Assembly: GCF_026343295.1 (NCBI RefSeq)
Contig: NZ_JAPELY010000001.1
Coordinates: 1,178,001-1,242,000 of the forward strand
Direction of reading: 5' to 3'
DNA length: 64,000 nt
Source: Streptomyces sp. NBC_00083
GTDB taxonomy: Bacteria > Actinomycetota > Actinomycetes > Streptomycetales > Streptomycetaceae
Below, in pieces: positions 47,517 to 57,869 of this stretch. Positions within the stretch are counted from its first letter, which is position 1, and each line of letters starts with the position of its first letter. The position numbers were made by a program, and so were the translations under genes. The notes under the pieces are model-generated. The model saw nothing but the letters and a program-made list of their open reading frames with translations. It searched no databases and was not told the origin of the DNA.

Positions 47517-47975
47517 ATGGCTATCGAGGTCGGCACCAAGGCCCCGGAGTTCGAGCTCAAGGACAACCACGGCCGGACCGTGAAGCTCAGCGACTTCCGC
47601 GGCGAGAAGAACGTGGTGCTGCTCTTCTACCCGTTCGCCTTCACCGGCGTCTGCACGGGCGAGCTGTGCGAACTGCGCGACAACCTGCCGAAGTTCGTCA
47701 ACGACGACACCCAGCTGCTCGCCGTCTCCAACGACTCCATCCACACCCTGCGCGTCTTCGCCGAGCAGGAGGGCCTGGAGTACCCGCTGGTCTCCGACTT
47801 CTGGCCGCACGGCGAGGTGAGCCGCTCCTACGGCGTCTTCGACGAGGACAAGGGCTGCGCGGTGCGCGGCACCTTCATCATCGACAAGGAGGGTGTGGTC
47901 CGCTGGACCGTAGTGAACGGTCTTCCGGACGCCCGCGACCTCGACGAGTACCTCAAGGCGCTCGACACCATCTGA
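47517..47975 (+). CDS. Peroxiredoxin, AhpE-like with an additional PrxQ-spaced Cys
   Basis: 152 aa thioredoxin fold. The peroxidatic Cys46 is in [19 protein letters not shown]. AhpE of Mycobacterium has PLAFTGICQGEL without a second Cys; here Cys51 gives a C-x4-C spacing as in PrxQ/BCP. A third Cys is at 114. Likely reduces peroxides in the cytoplasm. The ATG at 47517 follows GGAAGG. A TAGGGT box lies about 40 bp upstream. It stands at the head of the Ter region and is probably transcribed separately. Confidence 0.92.
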
Positions 47976-48140
47976 GGCCACGGCACCCGGTCCCGACGCA
48001 CGGCCGACACCCTGGTCGCCGTTCGGCCGAATCGTCTGTTTGACCCGGGAACCGGTCACTAGGATCCATTCGTTGATCCGATGCCAACGCACGACGGGGA
48101 CGCTGACCAGGCTTGCCCCCTCACACCATTGGGAGGACTC

Positions 48141-48716
48141 GTGGGAGTCAGCCTCAGCAAGGGCGGAAACGTCTCGCTGACCAAGGCCGCCCCCAACCTG
48201 ACCGCGGTCATCGTCGGTCTGGGATGGGACGCACGCACCACCACCGGGGGTGACTTCGACCTGGACGCCAGTGCCCTGCTGACCAACGACCAGGGCAAGG
48301 TCACCAACGACTCGAACTTCGTGTTCTTCAACAACCTCAAGAGCCCCGACGGCTCCGTCGAGCACACCGGTGACAACCTCACCGGTGAGGGCGAGGGCGA
48401 CGACGAGGTCATCAAGGTGAACCTGGCCGGAGTCCCGGCTGACGTCGCCAAGATCGTCTTCCCGGTCTCGATCTACGAGGCCGAGAGCCGCCAGCAGTCC
48501 TTCGGCCAGGTGCGCAACGCCTACATCCGCGTCGTGAACCAGGCCGACAACTCCGAGCTGGCCCGTTACGACCTGAGCGAGGACGCCTCGACGGAGACCG
48601 CGATGGTCTTCGGCGAGCTGTACCGCAACGGCGCGGAGTGGAAGTTCCGCGCCATCGGCCAGGGCTACGCCTCGGGCCTGCGCGGCATCGCGCAGGACTT
48701 CGGCGTCAACGTCTGA
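48141..48716 (+). CDS. terD: TerD family protein (copy 1)
   Basis: 191 aa, the standard TerD length. Conserved parts: [19 protein letters not shown] at the start, GWDART and [23 protein letters not shown] (likely calcium-binding acidic loop), [18 protein letters not shown], and [14 protein letters not shown]. TerD proteins bind calcium and are linked to tellurite, oxidative and other stress and to Streptomyces development. The GTG at 48141 has GGGAGG 4-5 nt upstream. A -10-like TAGGAT lies at about 48061. A hairpin separates it from the next copy. Confidence 0.95.
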
Positions 48717-48752
48717 GCCGACCCGCTCTTCCGTCCGGCGCCGCACCCCTGT

Positions 48753-48787
48753 GGTGCGGCGCCGGACGCGCTCACCACTTGTTCCAC
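48753..48787 (+). terminator. Hairpin between the two terD copies
   Basis: Perfect 15-bp stem GTCCGGCGCCGCACC / GGTGCGGCGCCGGAC with a CCTGT loop. No T-run, so it may reduce rather than stop read-through from terD copy 1 into copy 2. Confidence 0.7.
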
Positions 48788-48807
48788 TTCTCGGGGAGGA
48801 CACGATC

Positions 48808-49383
48808 ATGGGCGTCACGCTCGCCAAGGGGGGCAATGTCTCCCTCTCCAAGGCCGCACCGAACCTCACCCAGGTGCTCGTCGGTCTCGGCTGGGACGCG
48901 CGCTCCACCACCGGAGCCGACTTCGACCTCGACGCCAGCGCCCTGCTGTGCGCCAACGGACGGGTGCTCGGCGACGAGTACTTCGTCTTCTACAACAACC
49001 TCAAGAGCCCCGAGGGCTCCGTCGAGCACACCGGTGACAACTTGACGGGTGAGGGCGAGGGTGACGACGAGTCGCTGATCGTCGACCTGACGCAGGTCCC
49101 GGCCGGCTGCGACAAGATCGTCTTCCCGGTGTCCATCCACGACGCGGACAACCGCGGCCAGACGTTCGGCCAGGTGGCCAACGCGTTCATCCGCGTGGTC
49201 AACCAGGCCGACGGCCAGGAGCTGGCCCGCTACGACCTGAGCGAGGACGCCTCGACGGAGACCGCGATGATCTTCGGCGAGCTGTACCGCTACGGCGGCG
49301 AGTGGAAGTTCCGGGCCGTGGGCCAGGGGTACGCATCGGGGTTGCGGGGCATCGCTCTAGACTTCGGGGTCAACGTCTCCTAA
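48808..49383 (+). CDS. terD: TerD family protein (copy 2)
   Basis: 191 aa, closely similar to copy 1 along the whole length, so the pair arose by tandem duplication. It keeps [23 protein letters not shown] and the C-terminal [18 protein letters not shown]. Differences cluster after residue 45 ([18 protein letters not shown]), where it gains Cys residues. ATG at 48808 follows GGGGAGGA. Confidence 0.95.
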
Positions 49384-49542
49384 AGAGATCGCCCGGATGC
49401 CTTCAAATCGAGTGCCGTCGGGGCGGTCCCTGCCGGGGGTCCGGGGGTCCTCCTCCGGGAGACAGCAGCGTCAAGCCGTGCGCGGTGCGGGGGGAGACCC
49501 GCTCTACGTGGGGTCGGCCCGCTCTACACGATGGGGAAGTCA

Positions 49543-50685
49543 GTGCTTCTGAAAACCTTCGGCTGGTCATTCGTGATCACCGCGATCGGCTTGGCCCTGG
49601 CCGTGCTCTACGACGGCTGGACAGCGCTCGGGGTCGTCGCCATCCTGGCGGTCCTCGAAATCTCGCTGTCCTTCGACAACGCGGTGGTCAACGCCGGAAT
49701 CCTGAAGAAGATGAATGCCTTCTGGCAGAAGATCTTCCTCACGGTCGGCGTCCTGATCGCCGTGTTCGGCATGCGCCTGCTCTTCCCCGTCGTCATCGTG
49801 GCCATCAGCGCCAAGATCGGCCCCATCGACGCCGTCGACCTGGCGCTCAACGACGCCGACCGCTACCAGCAGCTGGTGACCGACGCACACCCGTCGATCG
49901 CCGCCTTCGGTGGCATGTTCCTGTTCATGATCTTCCTCGACTTCATCTTCGAGGACCGTGACATCAAGTGGCTCGCGTGGCTGGAGCGCCCGCTGGCCAA
50001 GCTCGGCAAGATCGACATGCTGTCGGTCTGCATCGCGCTGATCGCGCTGCTCGTCGCGTCCATGACGGTCGCCACCCACGCCCACCAGCACGGCGGCGGA
50101 CACGTCGACAAGGCGCAGACGGTCCTGATCTCCGGTATCGCCGGCCTCATCACCTACCTCGTCGTCGGCGGCCTCTCCGGCTACTTCGAGAACCGTCTCG
50201 AAGAGGACGAGGAGCGCGAGCACGAGCAGGAGGAGGAGGCCAGGCGCACCGGCAGCAAGGTGTCCGCCGTGGCCATGGCTGGCAAGGCCGCCTTCTTCAT
50301 GTTCCTCTACCTGGAGGTCCTGGACGCGTCGTTCTCCTTCGACGGCGTGATCGGCGCCTTCGCCATCACCAACGACATCGTCCTGATGGCGCTCGGCCTG
50401 GGCATCGGCGCGATGTACGTACGGTCGCTCACCGTCTACCTGGTCCGCCAGGGCACCCTGGACGACTACGTCTACCTGGAGCACGGAGCGCACTACGCGA
50501 TCGGTGCGCTGGCCGTGATTCTGCTCGTCACCATCCAGTACGAGATCAACGACGTGATCACGGGTCTGGTCGGCGTGGTCCTCATCGCCTGGTCCTTCCT
50601 GTCCTCCGTGCGCCGCAACCGCCGCATCGAGGCCGCCGGCGGCGAGGACGCGGGCGACCGGGCGGAAGTGGGCTCCGGGGTGTGA
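49543..50685 (+). CDS. DUF475/TerC-superfamily integral membrane protein
   Basis: 380 aa (384 if the ATG at 49531 is used). About nine hydrophobic segments are seen. Two TerC-like acidic motifs lie in the membrane: LEISLSFDNAVVNAGIL near the N-terminus and DASFSFDGVIGAFAIT near residue 260; they are probably metal-binding. A charged loop (EEDEEREHEQEEEARR) and a His-rich loop (THAHQHGGGHVD) face the aqueous side. TerC-type proteins are linked to metal efflux and Ter complexes. GTG 49543 was preferred because GGGGA lies 5 nt upstream. A strong terminator follows. Confidence 0.9.
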   Translation: MLLKTFGWSFVITAIGLALAVLYDGWTALGVVAILAVLEISLSFDNAVVNAGILKKMNAFWQKIFLTVGVLIAVFGMRLLFPVVIVAISAKIGPIDAVDLALNDADRYQQLVTDAHPSIAAFGGMFLFMIFLDFIFEDRDIKWLAWLERPLAKLGKIDMLSVCIALIALLVASMTVATHAHQHGGGHVDKAQTVLISGIAGLITYLVVGGLSGYFENRLEEDEEREHEQEEEARRTGSKVSAVAMAGKAAFFMFLYLEVLDASFSFDGVIGAFAITNDIVLMALGLGIGAMYVRSLTVYLVRQGTLDDYVYLEHGAHYAIGALAVILLVTIQYEINDVITGLVGVVLIAWSFLSSVRRNRRIEAAGGEDAGDRAEVGSGV

Positions 50686-50746
50686 CCCCGGTGCTTCCGG
50701 AGCGCACGCCCCGGGGCGTGTGATCCGGCTCCGAATGAGGAACGCT

Positions 50747-50795
50747 CTCTGCGGGGCGGCCACGAGGCTTCGGCCTCACCGGCCGCCCCGCAGAG
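50747..50795 (+). terminator. Two-level hairpin terminator after the DUF475 gene
   Basis: CTCTGCGGGGCGGCC (50747-50761) pairs perfectly with GGCCGCCCCGCAGAG (50781-50795). Inside lies a second stem GAGGC-TTCG-GCCTC. Confidence 0.85.
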
Positions 50796-50879
50796 CTGTA
50801 CGCGGAAGGAAGTCGTGCCGGCGGACCACCGCCGGCGCTGGTGTGCGGGGACAGTTCACGGACCTATGGGGTGGGGGCA

Positions 50880-51617
50880 ATGGCGTTCTGGGACGGCCTG
50901 TGGCGAGGCAGGGCCTCACAGTTCGACTCGGGCAGCGCGGCGACCAACACGATCGAGCTGACCCGACGGCACAACACGGTCTCGCTCGGCAAGCAGGGTG
51001 CCAACACCGGCAGCCTGCGCGTCAACCTGTCGTGGCGGATGCGCACCTCGGACTTCGGGGGCAAGCCCGAGCAGAGCGGACGGCTGCTGCGCCACCCGCT
51101 CCAGTTCTTCAAGCCGGAGATGGTCCAGGGCCACACCCAGTCCATGGTCAACGTCGACCTCGACCTGGGCTGCCTCTACGAACTCCAGGACGGCACCAAG
51201 GGCGTGGTCCAGCCGCTCGGCAACTTCCTGGGCGCCACCAACAAGCCGCCCTACGTGGAGTGCAGCGGAGACGACCGCTTCGGTTCGGCCTCCGGCGAGA
51301 CGGTCTTCGTCAACCTCGACCACCGGGACGAGATAAAGCGGCTGCTGATCTTCGTCTACATCTACGACCAGACCCCGGCCTTCGACCGCACCCACGCCAA
51401 GGTGACGCTCTACCCGAGCAACGGCCCGCGCATCGAGATCGAGCTCGACGAGCGCGCCCCCGAGGCCCGCTCCTGCGCCGTGGTCTCCATCGAGAACATC
51501 AAGGGCGACATGGTGGTGCGCCGCGAGGTGAAGTTCGTGTACGGCTTCCAGGCCGAGCTGGACCGCCTGTACGGCTGGGGCCTCCAGTGGGGCCGCGGCT
51601 ACAAGACCAAGGCCTGA
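50880..51617 (+). CDS. TerA/TerD-like stress protein, larger form
   Basis: 245 aa. A TerD-like beta-sandwich is recognisable (VNVDLDLGCLYELQDGTKGVVQPLGN, then SGDDRFGSASGETVFVNLD, then KRLLIFVYIYDQ). The calcium-loop motifs of the short TerD proteins are changed, and the N-terminal 50 residues (FWDGLWRGRASQFDSG) are unique. The C-terminus has KFVYGFQAELDRLYGWGLQWGRG. It fits the TerA-like subgroup of Ter proteins. The ATG at 50880 follows a G-rich site. Its adjacency to DUF475 and TerD genes supports a joint membrane-associated role. Confidence 0.85.
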   Translation: MAFWDGLWRGRASQFDSGSAATNTIELTRRHNTVSLGKQGANTGSLRVNLSWRMRTSDFGGKPEQSGRLLRHPLQFFKPEMVQGHTQSMVNVDLDLGCLYELQDGTKGVVQPLGNFLGATNKPPYVECSGDDRFGSASGETVFVNLDHRDEIKRLLIFVYIYDQTPAFDRTHAKVTLYPSNGPRIEIELDERAPEARSCAVVSIENIKGDMVVRREVKFVYGFQAELDRLYGWGLQWGRGYKTKA

Positions 51618-51641
51618 GCCGCGCCGCCCGCGCGCCGGTCC

Positions 51642-52427
51642 CTACGGGCGGATGAACTGCGGCCCCATGGGCGGCAGTACGAACGTGGGGTCCGGCGTCG
51701 GCGCCGGCACGGCGACGCCCTGCGGGTAGCCGTACGCGGGCTGCGGCGAGGTCGGCTGCGGATAGCCGTAGGCCGGCGGCTGCGCCGGGGGAGCGGGGTG
51801 CGGATAGCCGTACGCGGGCTGGGCGGCCTGCTGCGGCAGCGGCTGCGGCACGGACGGCGCGCTCGGCGCACCGGCAGCGCCCTCGCCGTCGTCCACCGAG
51901 ATGCCGTACTCGGTGGCCAGACCCACCAGACCCGTCGGGTAGCCCTGGCCCACCGCGCGGAACTTCCACCCGTCGCCGCGGCGGTACAGCTCGCCGCAGA
52001 TGATCGCGGTCTCCTCGCCGGTCTCCGGCTTCACGTCGAACAGCGCGAGCGGCTCCCCGCCCGACACCGCCGCGTCGAACAGCAGGATCCGCAGGTCGCG
52101 GACGGCGCGGAAGGTCGCCCCGTCCGACGAGGCGGTGATCAGCACCCGGTCGACGGACCGGTCGAGCGCCGCGAGATCGGCCTCGACGGTGTCGGTGAGG
52201 CCCTCCACCACCCGCTTCTTCGGCAGCCTGCGCACCAGTCCGGAGGGGTGGCGCGGCTGGTTGTAGAAGACGAAGTCCTCGTCGGAACGCACCCGGCCGT
52301 CGGCGGCGAGCAGCAGCGCCGAGGCATCCACGTCCGGGATGTCGGCGCCGGGCGACCAGCGGAGCACCGCCCGTACGGCCGGGGCGTCCAGCGGGACGTT
52401 CGATCCCTTCAGCATCGCGTGCGTCAT
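51642..52427 (-). CDS. TerD-domain protein with Pro/Tyr-rich repeat tail
   Basis: 261 aa. Residues 1-180 form a divergent TerD domain ([47 protein letters not shown]). The calcium-loop motif GDNLTG is missing. The last 75 residues carry repeated AYGYP units separated by Pro/Gln/Ala, similar in style to proteins that mediate protein-protein contacts. It is the only Ter gene on the minus strand here and is divergent from the CitE-like gene. ATG 52427 was chosen by its AGGA site; 52436 is possible. Confidence 0.85.
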   Translation of the reverse strand: MTHAMLKGSNVPLDAPAVRAVLRWSPGADIPDVDASALLLAADGRVRSDEDFVFYNQPRHPSGLVRRLPKKRVVEGLTDTVEADLAALDRSVDRVLITASSDGATFRAVRDLRILLFDAAVSGGEPLALFDVKPETGEETAIICGELYRRGDGWKFRAVGQGYPTGLVGLATEYGISVDDGEGAAGAPSAPSVPQPLPQQAAQPAYGYPHPAPPAQPPAYGYPQPTSPQPAYGYPQGVAVPAPTPDPTFVLPPMGPQFIRP

Positions 52428-52556
52428 GCCCGTCATCCTGCCTTCCCGCGCCCCCCTCGGACAACGCGGGGCCCGACCGGATCAGTCCCCCGGCGTACGC
52501 ACGAGGCCGACGAGGCGTGCTGATGCAGATGAGTTACCTGAACTTCACGCACTTGG

Positions 52557-52577
52557 GGAACTCTTGACACGTGTTCC
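52557..52577 (+). promoter_or_regulatory. Inverted repeat and -35 hexamer upstream of the CitE-like gene
   Basis: GGAAC (52557-52561) and GTTCC (52573-52577) form a perfect inverted repeat around 11 nt. The spacer includes TTGACA (52564-52569). The position about 60 bp upstream of the gene fits a regulated promoter; the -10 is unclear. Confidence 0.45.
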
Positions 52578-52635
52578 TACGTACTATTACCGGCCACCCA
52601 AATTCTCGGCCGTCCTGGCAGTACGGGGTATGTAT

Positions 52636-53799
52636 ATGCGTCATTTCGGGCACGTCCCGTCGGCTGTGCGGAAGGACCTCTTCCACCAGGAGCCCTGCGA
52701 ATTCACCGCGGGCTCCTCCGCACGCGTGCTGTCGGCCGCCCTGGGCGCAACCCTCTACAGCCCGGCGACCCGGCCGTCCCTCGCCGACGACGTCCTGAAA
52801 CAGGCTCGCCGCGGCGTCGTCTCCATGGTCCTCTGCCTGGAGGACTCGATCGACGACGCCGAGGTCGTGGCCGCCGAGGCCAACCTGGTCCGCCAGTTCG
52901 CCGACCTCGACGCCCGGGGCGAACAGACCCCGCTGCTCTTCGTGCGCGTCCGCGAGCCGCTCCAGATACCGGACCTGGTGCACCGCCTCGGCTCCTCCGC
53001 CCGGCTGCTCAGCGGCTTCGTCCTGCCGAAGTTCACCGAGGAGCGCGGCCTCGCCTTCCTCGAAGCGCTCACCAGCGCCGAGTCCGGGAGCGGGCGCCGC
53101 CTGTTCGCCATGCCGGTCCTCGAATCGCCCGAACTGCTCCACCTGGAGAGCCGCGCCGAGACCCTCGCGGGCATCGCGCGCACCGTGGAGAAGTACCGCG
53201 AGCGGATCCTCGCCCTCCGCCTCGGCGTCACCGACTTCTGCGCCGCCTACGGGCTGCGCCGCTCGCCCGACATGACGGCGTACGACGTCCACATCGTGGC
53301 CGGCGTCATCGCCGACGTGGTCAACATGCTCGGCCGCGCCGACGGCAGCGGCTTCACCATCACCGGCCCCGTATGGGAGTACTTCCGCCTCCAGGAGCGG
53401 ATGTTCAAGCCCCAGCTGCGCCGCAGCCCCTTCCTCGAAGGGCACGCCGAGAAGCTGCGCACCACCCTCATCGAGCACGACCTCGACGGGCTGCTCCGCG
53501 AGATCGAGCTCGACCGGGCCAACGGCCTGCTGGGCAAGACGTGCATCCACCCCTCGCACGTGGTGCCCGTCCACGCCCTCTCGGTGGTCAGCCACGAGGA
53601 GTTCAGCGACGCCCAGGACATCCTGCGCCCCGACCGGGACGGCGGCGGGGTGCTGCGCTCGGCGTACACGAACAAGATGAACGAGGTGAAGCCGCACCGC
53701 GCCTGGGCCGAGCGCACCCTGCTGCGGGCCGAGGTGTTCGGCGTCGCCGCCGAGGACATCGGCTTCGTGGACCTGCTCACGGCGGGCCTCGCGGCATGA
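52636..53799 (+). CDS. CitE-like (HpcH/HpaI) C-C bond lyase of the Ter-associated biosynthetic module
   Basis: 387 aa. The TIM-barrel aldolase signature includes VVSMVLCLEDSIDDAEV (metal-binding Glu/Asp region), PLLFVRVREP, LPKFTEERG and FAMPVLESPELL. It is longer than true CitE (about 300 aa) and has a C-terminal extension. It heads a three-gene plus-strand set with the PRTase-TRSP fusion and the HAD phosphatase. In published analysis of Ter systems (Anantharaman, Iyer and Aravind), a CitE-like enzyme of this kind is part of a predicted pathway to a nucleoside-like metabolite. ATG 52630 is an alternative start. The 52428-52635 gap holds the promoter region. Confidence 0.85.
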   Translation: MRHFGHVPSAVRKDLFHQEPCEFTAGSSARVLSAALGATLYSPATRPSLADDVLKQARRGVVSMVLCLEDSIDDAEVVAAEANLVRQFADLDARGEQTPLLFVRVREPLQIPDLVHRLGSSARLLSGFVLPKFTEERGLAFLEALTSAESGSGRRLFAMPVLESPELLHLESRAETLAGIARTVEKYRERILALRLGVTDFCAAYGLRRSPDMTAYDVHIVAGVIADVVNMLGRADGSGFTITGPVWEYFRLQERMFKPQLRRSPFLEGHAEKLRTTLIEHDLDGLLREIELDRANGLLGKTCIHPSHVVPVHALSVVSHEEFSDAQDILRPDRDGGGVLRSAYTNKMNEVKPHRAWAERTLLRAEVFGVAAEDIGFVDLLTAGLAA

Positions 53800-53892
53800 C
53801 GCGACCAGGAGCAGGCCGCGCCGCCCGGCGAACCAGCGGGACGTCCCAGTGGATCGTCCCGGCAGAACGTCCCAACAGAAAGACACAGCATC

Positions 53893-56352
53893 GTGGTTGA
53901 GTGGTCGGGAACGTGGGTCGCCGAGCGGCTCGGAGTCGAGCTCGTCGGGGACGAGGACCTGAGCGGGCTGCTCGGCCTCGCCCTGCGCCGCAACCCCAAG
54001 CGCGCCCATCTGCTCGTCTCCAACGTCCTCGGCAAACACGTCCCGCAGAGCCCGTCAGTGGTGTGGCGCGCCGGATACCAACTGGGCCTGCGGGTCAGGG
54101 AGTTGCTCGGCGACGAAACGGCCGCGCGGGCCGTGGTGCTCGGGTACGCCGAGACCGCGACCGGCCTCGGCCACTCGGTCGCCGACGGCCTGGCCCTCGC
54201 CCCCTGCCTCCACTCGACGCGCCGGCCGGTCCACGGCGTGGCCACGGCGGGCGGCTTCGAGGAGTCCCACTCCCACGCCACCTCCCACCTGCTGCTCCCC
54301 GAAGACCCCCGACTCCTCGCGGGGCAGGGCCCGTTGGTCCTCGTCGACGACGAGTTCTCGACCGGCAACACGGTCCTCAACACCATCCGTGACCTGCACG
54401 CCCGCCACCCGCGCGACCACTATGTGATCGTCGCCCTCGTCGACATGCGCTCCCCGCAGGACCGCGACCGCCTCACCGCCTTCGCGCGGGAGACCGGCGC
54501 CCGCGTCGACCTGATCGCCTCGGCGTCGGGCACGGTGCGGCTGCCGGAGGGGGTCCTGGAGAAGGGGCGGGCGCTGGTGGCGGAGTACGAGGCGGAGGAC
54601 CCGGGACATCTGCCGTCCGAGCGCAGTGCCCAGCCCCTCGGCTCCCTCACGCGCGTGGACCTCGGCTGGCCCGCGGGCCTGCCCGACGGCGGCCGGCACG
54701 GATTCACCCCGGACCACCGGGCGGAGCTGGAGGCGGCGCTGCCCGCCATGGCGGCGAGGCTGGCCGGAGCGCTCGGCGGCGCCGCCGAGCCCCCGCGCCG
54801 TGTGCTCGTCCTCGGCTTCGAGGAGCTGATGTACGCGCCGCTGCGCCTGGCCGTCGCGTTCGAAGAACGCGGCGGGGCCGAGGTCCGCTACTCCACGACG
54901 ACCCGCTCGCCCGTGCTCGCGGTCGACGACCCCGGCTACGCCATCCGCACCCGCCTCGCCTTCCCGGCGCACGACGACCCGGCCGACGGTCCCGGCGAGC
55001 GGTACGCGTACAACGTCGCGGGCGGCGGCTTCGACGCGGTCGTGGCGGTCGTCGACTCCGCCGCCGACACCGCGCAACTGCACGCACCCGACGGCCTGTT
55101 GGCGCGGCTCGCCGCCCACATCCCGCACGTCGTCCTCGCCGTACTGCCCTCGTACGTACCCCAAGGTGCCCCCATGCCCGAGCCGCTGCGCGGTCCCGCC
55201 TTCTCCTCCTACGCGCCCGACGAGGTGGGGTGGCTGCTCAAGGACCTGTCCGGGGTCGAGCTCGAAGCCCCCACCGAGGAGCGCGAGGAGGCCATCCAGA
55301 GCGGCGGCGCCCACTACGCGGAGTCGCTGCCGGTCGAGTACCAGCCGAGCCCGCAGTACCAGGAGCTGTTCCGGGCCGCGCTCGACGCCTCGGCGCCCCG
55401 GATTGCGCGGGCCGTCGGCGTGGTCACCGAGACGGTGCTCGCCGAGCTCCCCCAACGCCGTAGGCGCCGGGGGGACGCCCATCCGCGCCCGGTGCTCGTC
55501 TCGCTCGCCCGTGCCGGCACACCCGTGGGCGTCCTGATGCGCCGCTGGGCCCAGCACCGGCACGGCCTGGACCTGCCGCACTACGCGGTCTCCATCGTGC
55601 GCGGCCGGGGCATCGACCCCAACGCGCTGCGCTGGCTCGCCGCCCACCACGACCCGGCCGACGTCGTGTTCGTCGACGGGTGGACCGGCAAGGGCGCCAT
55701 CACCCGCGAACTGGCCGCCGCGATCGGCGAGTTCCCCGAGTTCGCCGGGTTCGTGCCGGACGTCGCGGTGCTCGCCGACCCCGGCTCCTGCGTGCGCACG
55801 TACGGCACCCGCGAGGACTTCCTGATCCCGTCCGCATGCCTCAACTCGACGGTGTCCGGGCTGATTTCGCGCACCGTGCTGCGCCAGGACCTCATAGGCC
55901 CCGGCGATTTCCACGGGGCCAAGTTCTACCGCGAGCTGGCCGGCGCCGACGTCTCGGGCGCCTTCCTCGACGCGGTCTCGGCGCGCTTCGACGAGGTCGG
56001 CGACGACGTGGACCGCGCGGCGAAGGAGCTGCGCGACACGGACCGCACCCCGAGCTGGGAGGGGTGGGCGGCGGTCGAGCGGATCAGCGAGGAGTACGGC
56101 ATCCACGACGTCAACCTGGTCAAGCCGGGCGTCGGCGAGACCACCCGGGTGCTCCTCCGCCGGGTCCCCTGGAAGATCCTCGCCGGGCGGGGCGCCGGGG
56201 CCGACCTCGACCACGTCAGGCTGCTCGCCGAGCAGCGCGGCGTGCCGGTGGAGGAGGTGGACGGGCTTCCGTACAGCTGTGTCGGCCTGATCCACCCGCG
56301 GTTCACGCGGGGCGCGACCGGCGCCGACGGCAAGGCGGTGGCCGCCAAGTGA
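53893..56352 (+). CDS. Four-part fusion: phosphoribosyltransferase, TRSP domain, StiP-like domain and PELOTA RNA-binding domain
   Basis: 819 aa. Residues 1-215 are an orotate-PRTase-like domain with the PRPP loop LVLVDDEFSTGNT (148-160). A TRSP-domain region follows, with the literal T-R-S-P at 337-340 and VLGFEELMYAPLRLA before it. Residues 440-665 resemble the StiP/second PRTase domain (SYAPDEVGWLLKDLS, LVSLARAGTPVGVLM, and a second loop VVFVDGWTGKGAI at 591-603). Residues 750-805 resemble the PELOTA_1 domain (WKILAGRGAGADLDHVRLLAE). In other bacteria these parts are often separate genes. The start is a GTG at 53893 with no clear ribosome binding site. The stop overlaps the HAD start. Confidence 0.85.
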   Translation: MVEWSGTWVAERLGVELVGDEDLSGLLGLALRRNPKRAHLLVSNVLGKHVPQSPSVVWRAGYQLGLRVRELLGDETAARAVVLGYAETATGLGHSVADGLALAPCLHSTRRPVHGVATAGGFEESHSHATSHLLLPEDPRLLAGQGPLVLVDDEFSTGNTVLNTIRDLHARHPRDHYVIVALVDMRSPQDRDRLTAFARETGARVDLIASASGTVRLPEGVLEKGRALVAEYEAEDPGHLPSERSAQPLGSLTRVDLGWPAGLPDGGRHGFTPDHRAELEAALPAMAARLAGALGGAAEPPRRVLVLGFEELMYAPLRLAVAFEERGGAEVRYSTTTRSPVLAVDDPGYAIRTRLAFPAHDDPADGPGERYAYNVAGGGFDAVVAVVDSAADTAQLHAPDGLLARLAAHIPHVVLAVLPSYVPQGAPMPEPLRGPAFSSYAPDEVGWLLKDLSGVELEAPTEEREEAIQSGGAHYAESLPVEYQPSPQYQELFRAALDASAPRIARAVGVVTETVLAELPQRRRRRGDAHPRPVLVSLARAGTPVGVLMRRWAQHRHGLDLPHYAVSIVRGRGIDPNALRWLAAHHDPADVVFVDGWTGKGAITRELAAAIGEFPEFAGFVPDVAVLADPGSCVRTYGTREDFLIPSACLNSTVSGLISRTVLRQDLIGPGDFHGAKFYRELAGADVSGAFLDAVSARFDEVGDDVDRAAKELRDTDRTPSWEGWAAVERISEEYGIHDVNLVKPGVGETTRVLLRRVPWKILAGRGAGADLDHVRLLAEQRGVPVEEVDGLPYSCVGLIHPRFTRGATGADGKAVAAK

Positions 56353-57164
56353 GCACGCCGCCCGTGCTGGTCGCCAGCGACCTCGACCGCACCCTGATCT
56401 ACTCCGCCGGAGCCCTCGCCCTCACCATGCCCGACGAGCGGGCGCCGCGGCTGCTCTGCGTCGAGGTGTACGAGCACAAGCCCCTCTCGTACGTCACGGA
56501 GGAGGCGGCGCGGCTGCTCACGGAGGTGAAGTCGGCGACGGTCTTCGTGCCCACCACGACCCGCACGCGCGCACAGTACGAGCGGATCCGACTGCCCGGC
56601 CCCGCCTCGCCGTTCGCGATCTGCGCCAACGGCGGCCACCTGCTCGTCGACGGCGTGTCCGATCCGGAGTGGGCCGGCGCGGTGGCGGCCCGCATCGCCG
56701 CCGAGTGCGCCCCGCTCGACGAGGTGCGCGCGCGGCTGCGGACCACCGCCGACCCGCGGTGGCTGCGCAAGGAGCGGACCGCGGAGGACCTTATCGCCTA
56801 CCTCGTGGTCGAGCGCGAGCTGCTGCCCGAGTCGTGGGTGAAGGAGTTCGTGGCCTGGGCCGAGCCGCGCGGCTGGACGGTCTCCCTCCAGGGCCGCAAG
56901 ATCTACGCCGTCCCGAAGCCGCTCACCAAGAGCGCGGCGATGCGGGAGGTCGCCCGGCGCACCGGGGCGCGGCTGACGCTGGCCGCGGGGGACTCGCTCC
57001 TGGACGCCGACCTGTTGCTCGCCGCCGACCTGGGCTGGCGCCCCGGCCACGGCGAACTCGCCGACGCGGGCTGGCAGGCGCCGGGCACCGAGGCGCTCGC
57101 CGAGCGCGGGGTGCTCGCCGGCGAGGAGATCCTGCGGCGCTTCCTGACCCGCGCCGCTCACTGA
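56349..57164 (+). CDS. HAD-family phosphatase of the Ter-associated module
   Basis: 271 aa. The HAD motifs are DLDRTL (nucleophile Asp in VASDLDRTLIYS), Thr in VPTTTRTRAQYERI, Lys in PKPLTKSAAMREV and AGDSLLDADLL (metal-binding Asp). The cap domain is of the Cof/C2 type. The GTG at 56349 overlaps the preceding stop (GTGA), so translation is coupled to the PRTase fusion. The expected job is removal of a phosphate from the intermediate made by the PRTase part; the substrate is inferred from context. Confidence 0.88.
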   Translation: MSTPPVLVASDLDRTLIYSAGALALTMPDERAPRLLCVEVYEHKPLSYVTEEAARLLTEVKSATVFVPTTTRTRAQYERIRLPGPASPFAICANGGHLLVDGVSDPEWAGAVAARIAAECAPLDEVRARLRTTADPRWLRKERTAEDLIAYLVVERELLPESWVKEFVAWAEPRGWTVSLQGRKIYAVPKPLTKSAAMREVARRTGARLTLAAGDSLLDADLLLAADLGWRPGHGELADAGWQAPGTEALAERGVLAGEEILRRFLTRAAH

Positions 57165-57209: not shown

Positions 57210-57869
57210 ATGACCAAGGGAAACAGCACCAAGATCACGGACGAGCTGTACGCCTACATGCTGGCCCACAACCCGCCGCTCGACGCGGTGCAGCGGGACC
57301 TGGTGGAGACCACGTACGCCCGCCTCCCCGACCACGCGGGCATGCAGTCGGCCGAGGAGCAGGGTCCGCTCCTCGCCTTCCTGGTGCGCCTGGTGAACGC
57401 GCGGCACGTGGTGGAGGTGGGCACCTTCACGGGCTTCTCCGCCCTCGCGATGGCGCAGGCCCTGCCGGCCGACGGCAAGCTGATCGCCTGCGACATCTCG
57501 GAGGAGTGGACGGCGTACGGCAAGGAGGCGTGGGCGAAGGCGGGTGTCGCGGACCGCATCGACCTGCGGATCGCGCCGGCACTCGACACGCTGCGGGCGA
57601 TGCCGGCGGAGCCGCACATCGATTTCGCCTATCTGGACGCGGACAAGGGGAACTACATCGCGTACTGGGAGGAGTTGGTGCCGCGGCTGCGGCCGGGCGG
57701 CCTGATCGCCACGGACAACGTGCTCTTCCACGGGGCGGTGCTGGATCCGGAGGTGGGGGGTGCGGCCGGGGGGATCCGGGCGTTCAACGAGCATGTGGCG
57801 GGGGATGGGCGGATGGACAGCGTGCTGCTGACGGTGGCGGACGGGTTGACGCTCTCGCGCAAGCGGTAG
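57210..57869 (+). CDS. Class I SAM-dependent O-methyltransferase (COMT-like)
   Basis: 219 aa. The SAM-binding motif is HVVEVGTFTGFSALAMAQAL, followed by LIACDISEEWTAYGKEAW. The metal-binding Asp/Asn pair is in DFAYLDADKGNYIAYWEEL and IATDNVLFHGAV. The family methylates catechol-type hydroxyls with a divalent metal. It lies 45 nt after the HAD gene but has its own leaderless promoter signal, so it need not belong to the Ter module. Confidence 0.9.
   Translation: MTKGNSTKITDELYAYMLAHNPPLDAVQRDLVETTYARLPDHAGMQSAEEQGPLLAFLVRLVNARHVVEVGTFTGFSALAMAQALPADGKLIACDISEEWTAYGKEAWAKAGVADRIDLRIAPALDTLRAMPAEPHIDFAYLDADKGNYIAYWEELVPRLRPGGLIATDNVLFHGAVLDPEVGGAAGGIRAFNEHVAGDGRMDSVLLTVADGLTLSRKR

Follow-up and report, generated by a model that had tools for sequence, protein, structure and literature searches.

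The 64,000-nucleotide stretch of the Streptomyces sp. NBC_00083 genome analyzed here (G000:C3:1178001-1242000; hereafter the window) carries, beside a cluster of TerD, TerC, and TerA-like genes, three consecutive enzyme genes: a CitE/HpcH-type C-C bond lyase, a PRTase_2-TRSP-StiP-PELOTA fusion, and a HAD phosphatase. We read these three genes as an actinobacterial, ATP-grasp-free form of the Ter enzyme module, which would turn phosphoribosyl pyrophosphate (PRPP) into a predicted ribosylated, nucleoside-like molecule that TerD, TerA, and TerC could detect, or act on, at the membrane of stressed cells. We assign this reading a probability of about one half.

Work on Ter genes has a long history, built on tellurite and phage phenotypes, but what the enzyme module makes is still hypothetical. 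Given that the actinobacterial form is small, fused, near-universal in the Streptomyces searched, and free of ATP-grasp, it offers a simple place to seek the molecule, and comparison with ATP-grasp-bearing loci would reveal what ligation adds. All genes named in an initial annotation of the window were recovered at their positions (Table 1), by Pfam scores or, for the TerA-like and HAD proteins, by other comparisons. Hidden Markov model matches to PRTase, TRSP, and TerD were found (226.5, 136.6, and up to 286.5 bits), and the identification of a Ter enzyme set, with its published interpretation as a source of a nucleoside-like metabolite, was borne out; that interpretation is restated in PMC8115787 and PMC7824862. 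The module had been called complete-looking, which holds for its PRTase_2/TRSP, StiP/PELOTA, lyase, HAD, and TerD/TerC/TerA components but not for ATP-grasp, and this missing ligation is the departure from the published scheme.

Absence of ATP-grasp from actinobacterial Ter loci

We compared the locus with a broad set made up of the best 80 of at least 544 scan matches, with the E. coli lyase at its head and nearly all proteobacterial. Loci were scored with iterated profiles over six-frame open reading frames (ORFs), and a locus was called complete if it had the full set of four enzymes with 6 kb or more of sequence to either side. All four enzymes were present in 74 of the 80 loci and ATP-grasp in 57; among the 64 complete loci, 51 had ATP-grasp and 13 did not. 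None of the 16 Streptomyces loci and none of the four Nocardia-type loci contained ATP-grasp, and the window itself gave no match among six-frame ORFs of at least 100 aa, confirming what had been noted from the sequence initially. ATPgrasp_Ter is a usual component, yet often absent outside the actinobacteria, and it is absent from each actinobacterial locus read.

The suggestion that the pathway might be reduced, or else completed elsewhere, fared unevenly. Completion elsewhere in the same genome (7.8 Mb, six contigs) was rejected as unsupported: the ATPgrasp_Ter profile gave only 29.0 bits (inside a carbamoyl-phosphate synthase domain) and 26.3 bits, a Streptomyces ATPgrasp_Ter protein used as query found one place at 25.3 bits, and none of eight ATP-grasp_4 places lay within 200 kb of any of the 15 places with a TerD domain. 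Three of these 15 are at the present locus; several of the 15 lie in long frames, one of which (C3:1692059) measures 762 aa. Whole-genome searches of three Nocardia-type genomes gave ATP-grasp matches of 25 to 27 bits only. A reduced pathway does fit, although not as a local loss, because the same form was seen in all actinobacterial loci of this type that were read.

Across the genus, 63 of 150 Streptomyces genomes bore an ATPgrasp_Ter homologue of at least 100 bits, and 87, including the genome studied here, were without one. StiP was also found in 61 of the 63, on the same contig at a distance of at least 405 kb in 25 and on other contigs in 36. When 20 Streptomyces ATP-grasp regions (19 from the 63, plus one from genome G008, at 73.5 bits) were searched by tblastn with the Ter-module proteins, just the ATP-grasp itself was recovered in 19 and nothing in G008. 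The neighborhoods of these genes (L083-L101) mostly have a recurring content of their own, which we read as another pathway, with families defined as protein clusters and named from L087: GH4 in 16 of 20, GH38 in 14, a metallophosphatase in 13, and a phosphopantetheinyl transferase in eight. L101 and L102 have little in common with it.

Conservation in Streptomyces and the phylum

Gene order was assessed in 15 other Streptomyces loci, picked for long contigs from 36 other genomes of the genus. The order aceE-DUF3052-peroxiredoxin-TerD-TerD-TerC-TerA-(TerD)-lyase-fusion-HAD was kept in 14 of the 15, more than chance would give, the remaining locus (L113) being rearranged. Counting the window, 15 of 16 Streptomyces loci have the fusion as a single ORF. 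StiP was found in 147 of 150 Streptomyces genomes, the three without it being assemblies of 550 to 1420 contigs, and the C-C lyase was full length in all 37 genomes of the genus (own included) within a 61-genome set, the other 24 giving at most 45.5 bits. Co-occurrence of these genes in other Streptomyces, on which the initial annotation had made its interpretation depend, is therefore general. Fusion homologues numbered 6671; of the best 120, the rows named by organism were all from Streptomyces, at 78-92% identity (own row aside). The locus is ordinary Streptomyces equipment.

Searching 296 genomes of the phylum gave 15 StiP matches: nine in Streptomyces and three in one other family, all strong, two of about 105 bits, and one below the cut-off. 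In a StiP tree of 94 loci, each holding the four enzymes, built quickly, with no bootstrap and with long branches flagged, all 20 actinobacterial rows fell on one side of a branch with an SH-aLRT value of 100, showing that the actinobacterial loci form one clade. A distant actinobacterial variant (L121 and L122, in genomes G347 and G187) combines TerD/TerA with a PRTase and a StiP-like protein (about 105 bits) and has no PELOTA part and no lyase match. Separately, three TerD genes occur together with lyase, StiP, and PRTase on a contig of human-gut origin recorded as "Bacteriophage sp." (MT836648.1, L050).

Domains of the fusion protein

The fusion chain appears to hold two, and probably three, phosphoribosyltransferase (PRTase)-like domains, and this part of the interpretation may be new. 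PRTase_2 has a canonical PRPP loop. TRSP aligned with PRTase_2 in hhalign (score 36.6, E 5e-5, 116 columns; maximum of 60 shuffles, 19.3) and is likely a decayed copy of it; this resemblance is one of profiles, the fold-search rows spanning residues 19-231. For StiP, structure prediction gave a type I PRTase fold, with CriT, a PRPP-using ribofuranosyltransferase (PDB 8a0c), as the best fold match at 8% identity. In its loop, VFVDGWTGKG, residues D166, G167, W168, and G172 are invariant, and the canonical two-acid PRPP pattern is lacking. The StiP family (PF11202) was once named PRTase_1, so that reading StiP as a PRTase is probably not new. Should StiP prove to be a transferase that uses PRPP, its family would be misleadingly labelled a "cysteine protease."

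The PELOTA part matched L7Ae-type RNA-binding proteins in Foldseek (probability 1.00, E about 0.01). The StiP match extended into PELOTA in 99 of 102 loci, the exceptions being the two distant variants L121 and L122 and L168, in which the ORF ends early. One genome (G023) has a second StiP-PELOTA gene (L206:9320-10624, on G023:C2; StiP 275.5 bits, 57% identity to that of the window), whose contig, 555 kb long, also bears IS21 and group II intron genes. This copy overlaps a gene for a zinc alcohol dehydrogenase, and in the 18.7 kb read around it neither lyase nor PRTase_2 nor HAD was found.

Proposed pathway and alternative explanations

Under the proposed scheme, the CitE/HpcH-type lyase would make or trim a small acid or base acceptor, which PRTase_2, partnered by a non-catalytic TRSP, would couple to ribose-5-phosphate. 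StiP, nearest to CriT in fold, would then carry out a second PRPP-dependent ribosyl-phosphate transfer, possibly with PELOTA as an RNA gate, and the HAD phosphatase would follow, as CrpP follows CriT, and strip the 5'-phosphate. The ligation done elsewhere by ATP-grasp would be omitted, leaving the actinobacterial product without the group that it adds. A bolder version, which we regard as quite improbable, has one polypeptide containing two working PRPP transferases, a dead third, and an RNA-binding domain: PRTase_2 would build a nucleotide, StiP (a CriT-type enzyme misnamed a protease) would add a second ribofuranose-5-phosphate to that nucleotide or to PELOTA-held RNA, and HAD would dephosphorylate the result to give a doubly ribosylated stress messenger or RNA mark throughout Streptomyces.

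Several observations weigh against the scheme. All Foldseek rows for StiP had E values above 0.001, the best being 1.5e-3 (a solute-binding protein) and 2.1e-3 (PyrR). The profile score of StiP against PRTase_2 (22.1) was barely above that of 60 shuffles (maximum 21.1) and of unrelated profiles (at most 19.5), so that the assignment of StiP to the phosphoribosyltransferases rests on the predicted fold; TRSP and StiP gave no profile match (score 14.3). Because the DGWTGKG loop is without the second acid, StiP may bind PRPP and not turn it over, and PELOTA would point toward RNA and not toward a small molecule alone. Presence of ATP-grasp changed at least 16 times on the StiP tree (some absences may be contig ends), and its step may therefore be a dispensable side step. 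The role of Ter proteins as sensors of the product is a published proposal, and among the literature matches listed no test of the product of the Ter enzyme module was noticed.

The enzymes and the Ter proteins could also be mere neighbors, the latter acting in calcium and redox stress and the former in unrelated housekeeping salvage. This would suit the ties of TerD (SCO2368) to calcium homeostasis and redox stress noted in citing papers, but it is unlikely in view of the TerD profile matches in 94 of 104 sources scanned around the enzymes (mostly Proteobacteria and Actinobacteria). Less plausible still is a complete actinobacterial pathway in which another ligase supplies the ATP-grasp step in trans, so that the product is the same as elsewhere. 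The homologues in 63 Streptomyces genomes and the eight ATP-grasp_4 places in the genome studied here would be candidates, but more than half of the 150 genomes are without such a homologue while StiP is in 147, and, where one occurs, it lies far from StiP or on another contig, with no other Ter-module gene in the regions fetched.

Regulated proteolysis, with StiP as a cysteine protease, follows the Pfam/NCBI family name and is highly improbable: no Cys was invariant among 51 StiP rows, the best Cys column (35 of 49) has Ala in the window, and the predicted fold is that of a PRTase. A further possibility is a role in stress-related RNA modification. Yeast Rit1 transfers ribose-5-phosphate from PRPP to RNA, and StiP, placed on structured RNA by PELOTA, might do the same, with HAD trimming the phosphate. 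The L7Ae-like character of PELOTA, its near-constant union with StiP, the persistence of that union in the second copy of G023 apart from the other enzymes, and the O-acceptors used by CriT would all agree with such a role; yet the lyase and the adenine phosphoribosyltransferase-like PRTase_2, both of which accompany StiP in 74 of 80 loci (in a scan that was itself lyase-based), would be left unexplained, and we consider it unlikely.

Comparison with known systems

The ter clusters of the E. coli IncHI2 plasmid (NZ_LC567843.1) and of Klebsiella (PMC8115787) share with the window PRTase_2-TRSP, StiP-PELOTA, C-C lyase, and HAD beside TerD/TerC and a TerA-like gene. On the IncHI2 plasmid, however, the module runs ATP-grasp, PRTase_2-TRSP, HAD, StiP-PELOTA, lyase: ATPgrasp_Ter heads the operon, one gene encodes PRTase-TRSP and another StiP-PELOTA, and TerB-, TerW-, and TerY-type genes are also carried, whereas the Streptomyces locus has fused enzymes, no ATP-grasp, and the lyase first. 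The Nocardia-type loci (L049, L118-L120) resemble the window in having lyase, PRTase/TRSP, StiP/PELOTA, and HAD without ATP-grasp, fused in three of the four; they differ in that a TerD-TerC pair points away from the enzymes, whose identity to those of the window is 44-64%.

CriT-CrpP of Bcs3 (PDB 8a0c; PMC10299916) likewise pairs a PRTase-like, PRPP-using ribosyltransferase with a HAD phosphatase, but it belongs to a capsule polymerase, is remote from StiP in sequence, and has no lyase, PELOTA, or Ter part described in the available text. TerD of S. coelicolor (SCO2368) is likely the orthologue of TerD 1, judging from gene order and numbering (SCO2367-68 are listed together), and in the sources available to us it was studied for calcium and stress, not for the enzymes.

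Regulation

SCO2368 is a sigma-E target raised by vancomycin, according to PMC6767563, and is linked to calcium homeostasis by a title cited in PMC9600765 and PMC8123226. The published SCO2368 sigma-E site maps inside the peroxiredoxin gene (window positions 47812-47840), where the -35 letters are GGCGAGG versus GGCAACG in SCO2368; a pattern search found the place in eight of 15 relatives, with GGCAACG kept in two of the eight (L108 and L116). On these grounds, we claim no sigma-E control here. Consensus promoters (0) and terminators (4) in the window were no more numerous than in shuffles. SCO2362, by gene counting the probable fusion orthologue, appears in Table 2 of PMC3087709 as a GlnR-dependent gene whose expression in S. 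venezuelae rises more than fivefold under nitrogen starvation, and a conserved antisense RNA is recorded in PMC3765725 at sco2364, which by the same counting would be the opposite-strand TerD gene. PMC8981147 gives SCO2366 the name FasR, a statement that we set aside.

Gene content of the locus

Table 1. Features of the Ter locus, in window coordinates.
Feature	Position	Strand	Basis
Peroxiredoxin (AhpC-TSA)	47517..47975	+	Pfam 138.9 bits; constant neighbor, 14/15 loci
TerD 1, 191 aa, GTG start	48141..48716	+	Pfam TerD 286.5 bits; solved homologue 3ibz spans all 191 residues
TerD 2	48808..49383	+	Pfam TerD 278.1 bits
TerC-family membrane protein (DUF475)	49531..50685	+	DUF475 460.7 bits; TerC 70.7 bits
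TerA-like protein	50880..51617	+	34% to presumed TerA, E. coli IncHI2 plasmid
Divergent TerD with Pro/Ala/Gln-rich tail	51642..52436	- (opposite strand)	TerD 150.6 bits; tail composition
CitE/HpcH-type C-C_Bond_Lyase	52636..53799 (start inferred)	+	PF15617 402 bits; invariant residues, 5-row alignment
PRTase_2-TRSP-StiP-PELOTA fusion, 819 aa	53893..56352	+	Pfam matches to all four domains
PRTase_2 domain, canonical PRPP loop VLVDDEFSTGNT	53968..54531	+	Pfam PRTase_2 226.5 bits
TRSP domain, likely decayed PRTase_2 copy, PRPP loop lost	54685..55104	+	Pfam TRSP 136.6 bits; hhalign
StiP domain, predicted PRTase fold, unusual loop VFVDGWTGKG	55204..55977	+	Pfam StiP 342.7 bits
PELOTA (L7Ae-like), predicted RNA-binding domain	56056..56295	+	PF15608 (PELOTA_1) 116.7 bits; Foldseek L7Ae rows
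HAD phosphatase	56349..57164	+	DLDRT and GDSLLD motifs; profile match; GTGA overlap with fusion stop
O-methyltransferase, 45 bp downstream of HAD, probably not core	57210..57869	+	Methyltransf_3 186.8 bits

The TerA-like and HAD proteins matched no Pfam family above the cut-off (for the former, TerD at 13 bits only). The identity of the TerA-like protein to the IncHI2 gene, over partial length, is to one labelled "TerD family," which we presume to be TerA because it sits between TerB and TerZ. The HAD protein scored 42.8 bits against a solved trehalose phosphatase and was matched by an iterated profile seeded from the HAD of the E. coli ter cluster; its gene shares four bases with that of the fusion (GTGA at 56349). 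The lyase likely starts near 52636, as alignments of homologues begin there. The tail of the opposite-strand TerD, initially described as adhesive-looking, is low complexity and rich in Pro, Ala, Gln, Gly, and Tyr, a composition that suggests nothing adhesive.

PADLOC defence models matched none of eight proteins of the Ter locus scanned (TerD 2 lay outside the scan). The O-methyltransferase was rejected as a core part, as it lies within 150 bp of HAD in just three of 15 loci (L103, L112, and L113); in two further loci (L111 and L117) it is a few kb away. It scored 55 bits against the PADLOC model mad2, probably a generic methyltransferase match.

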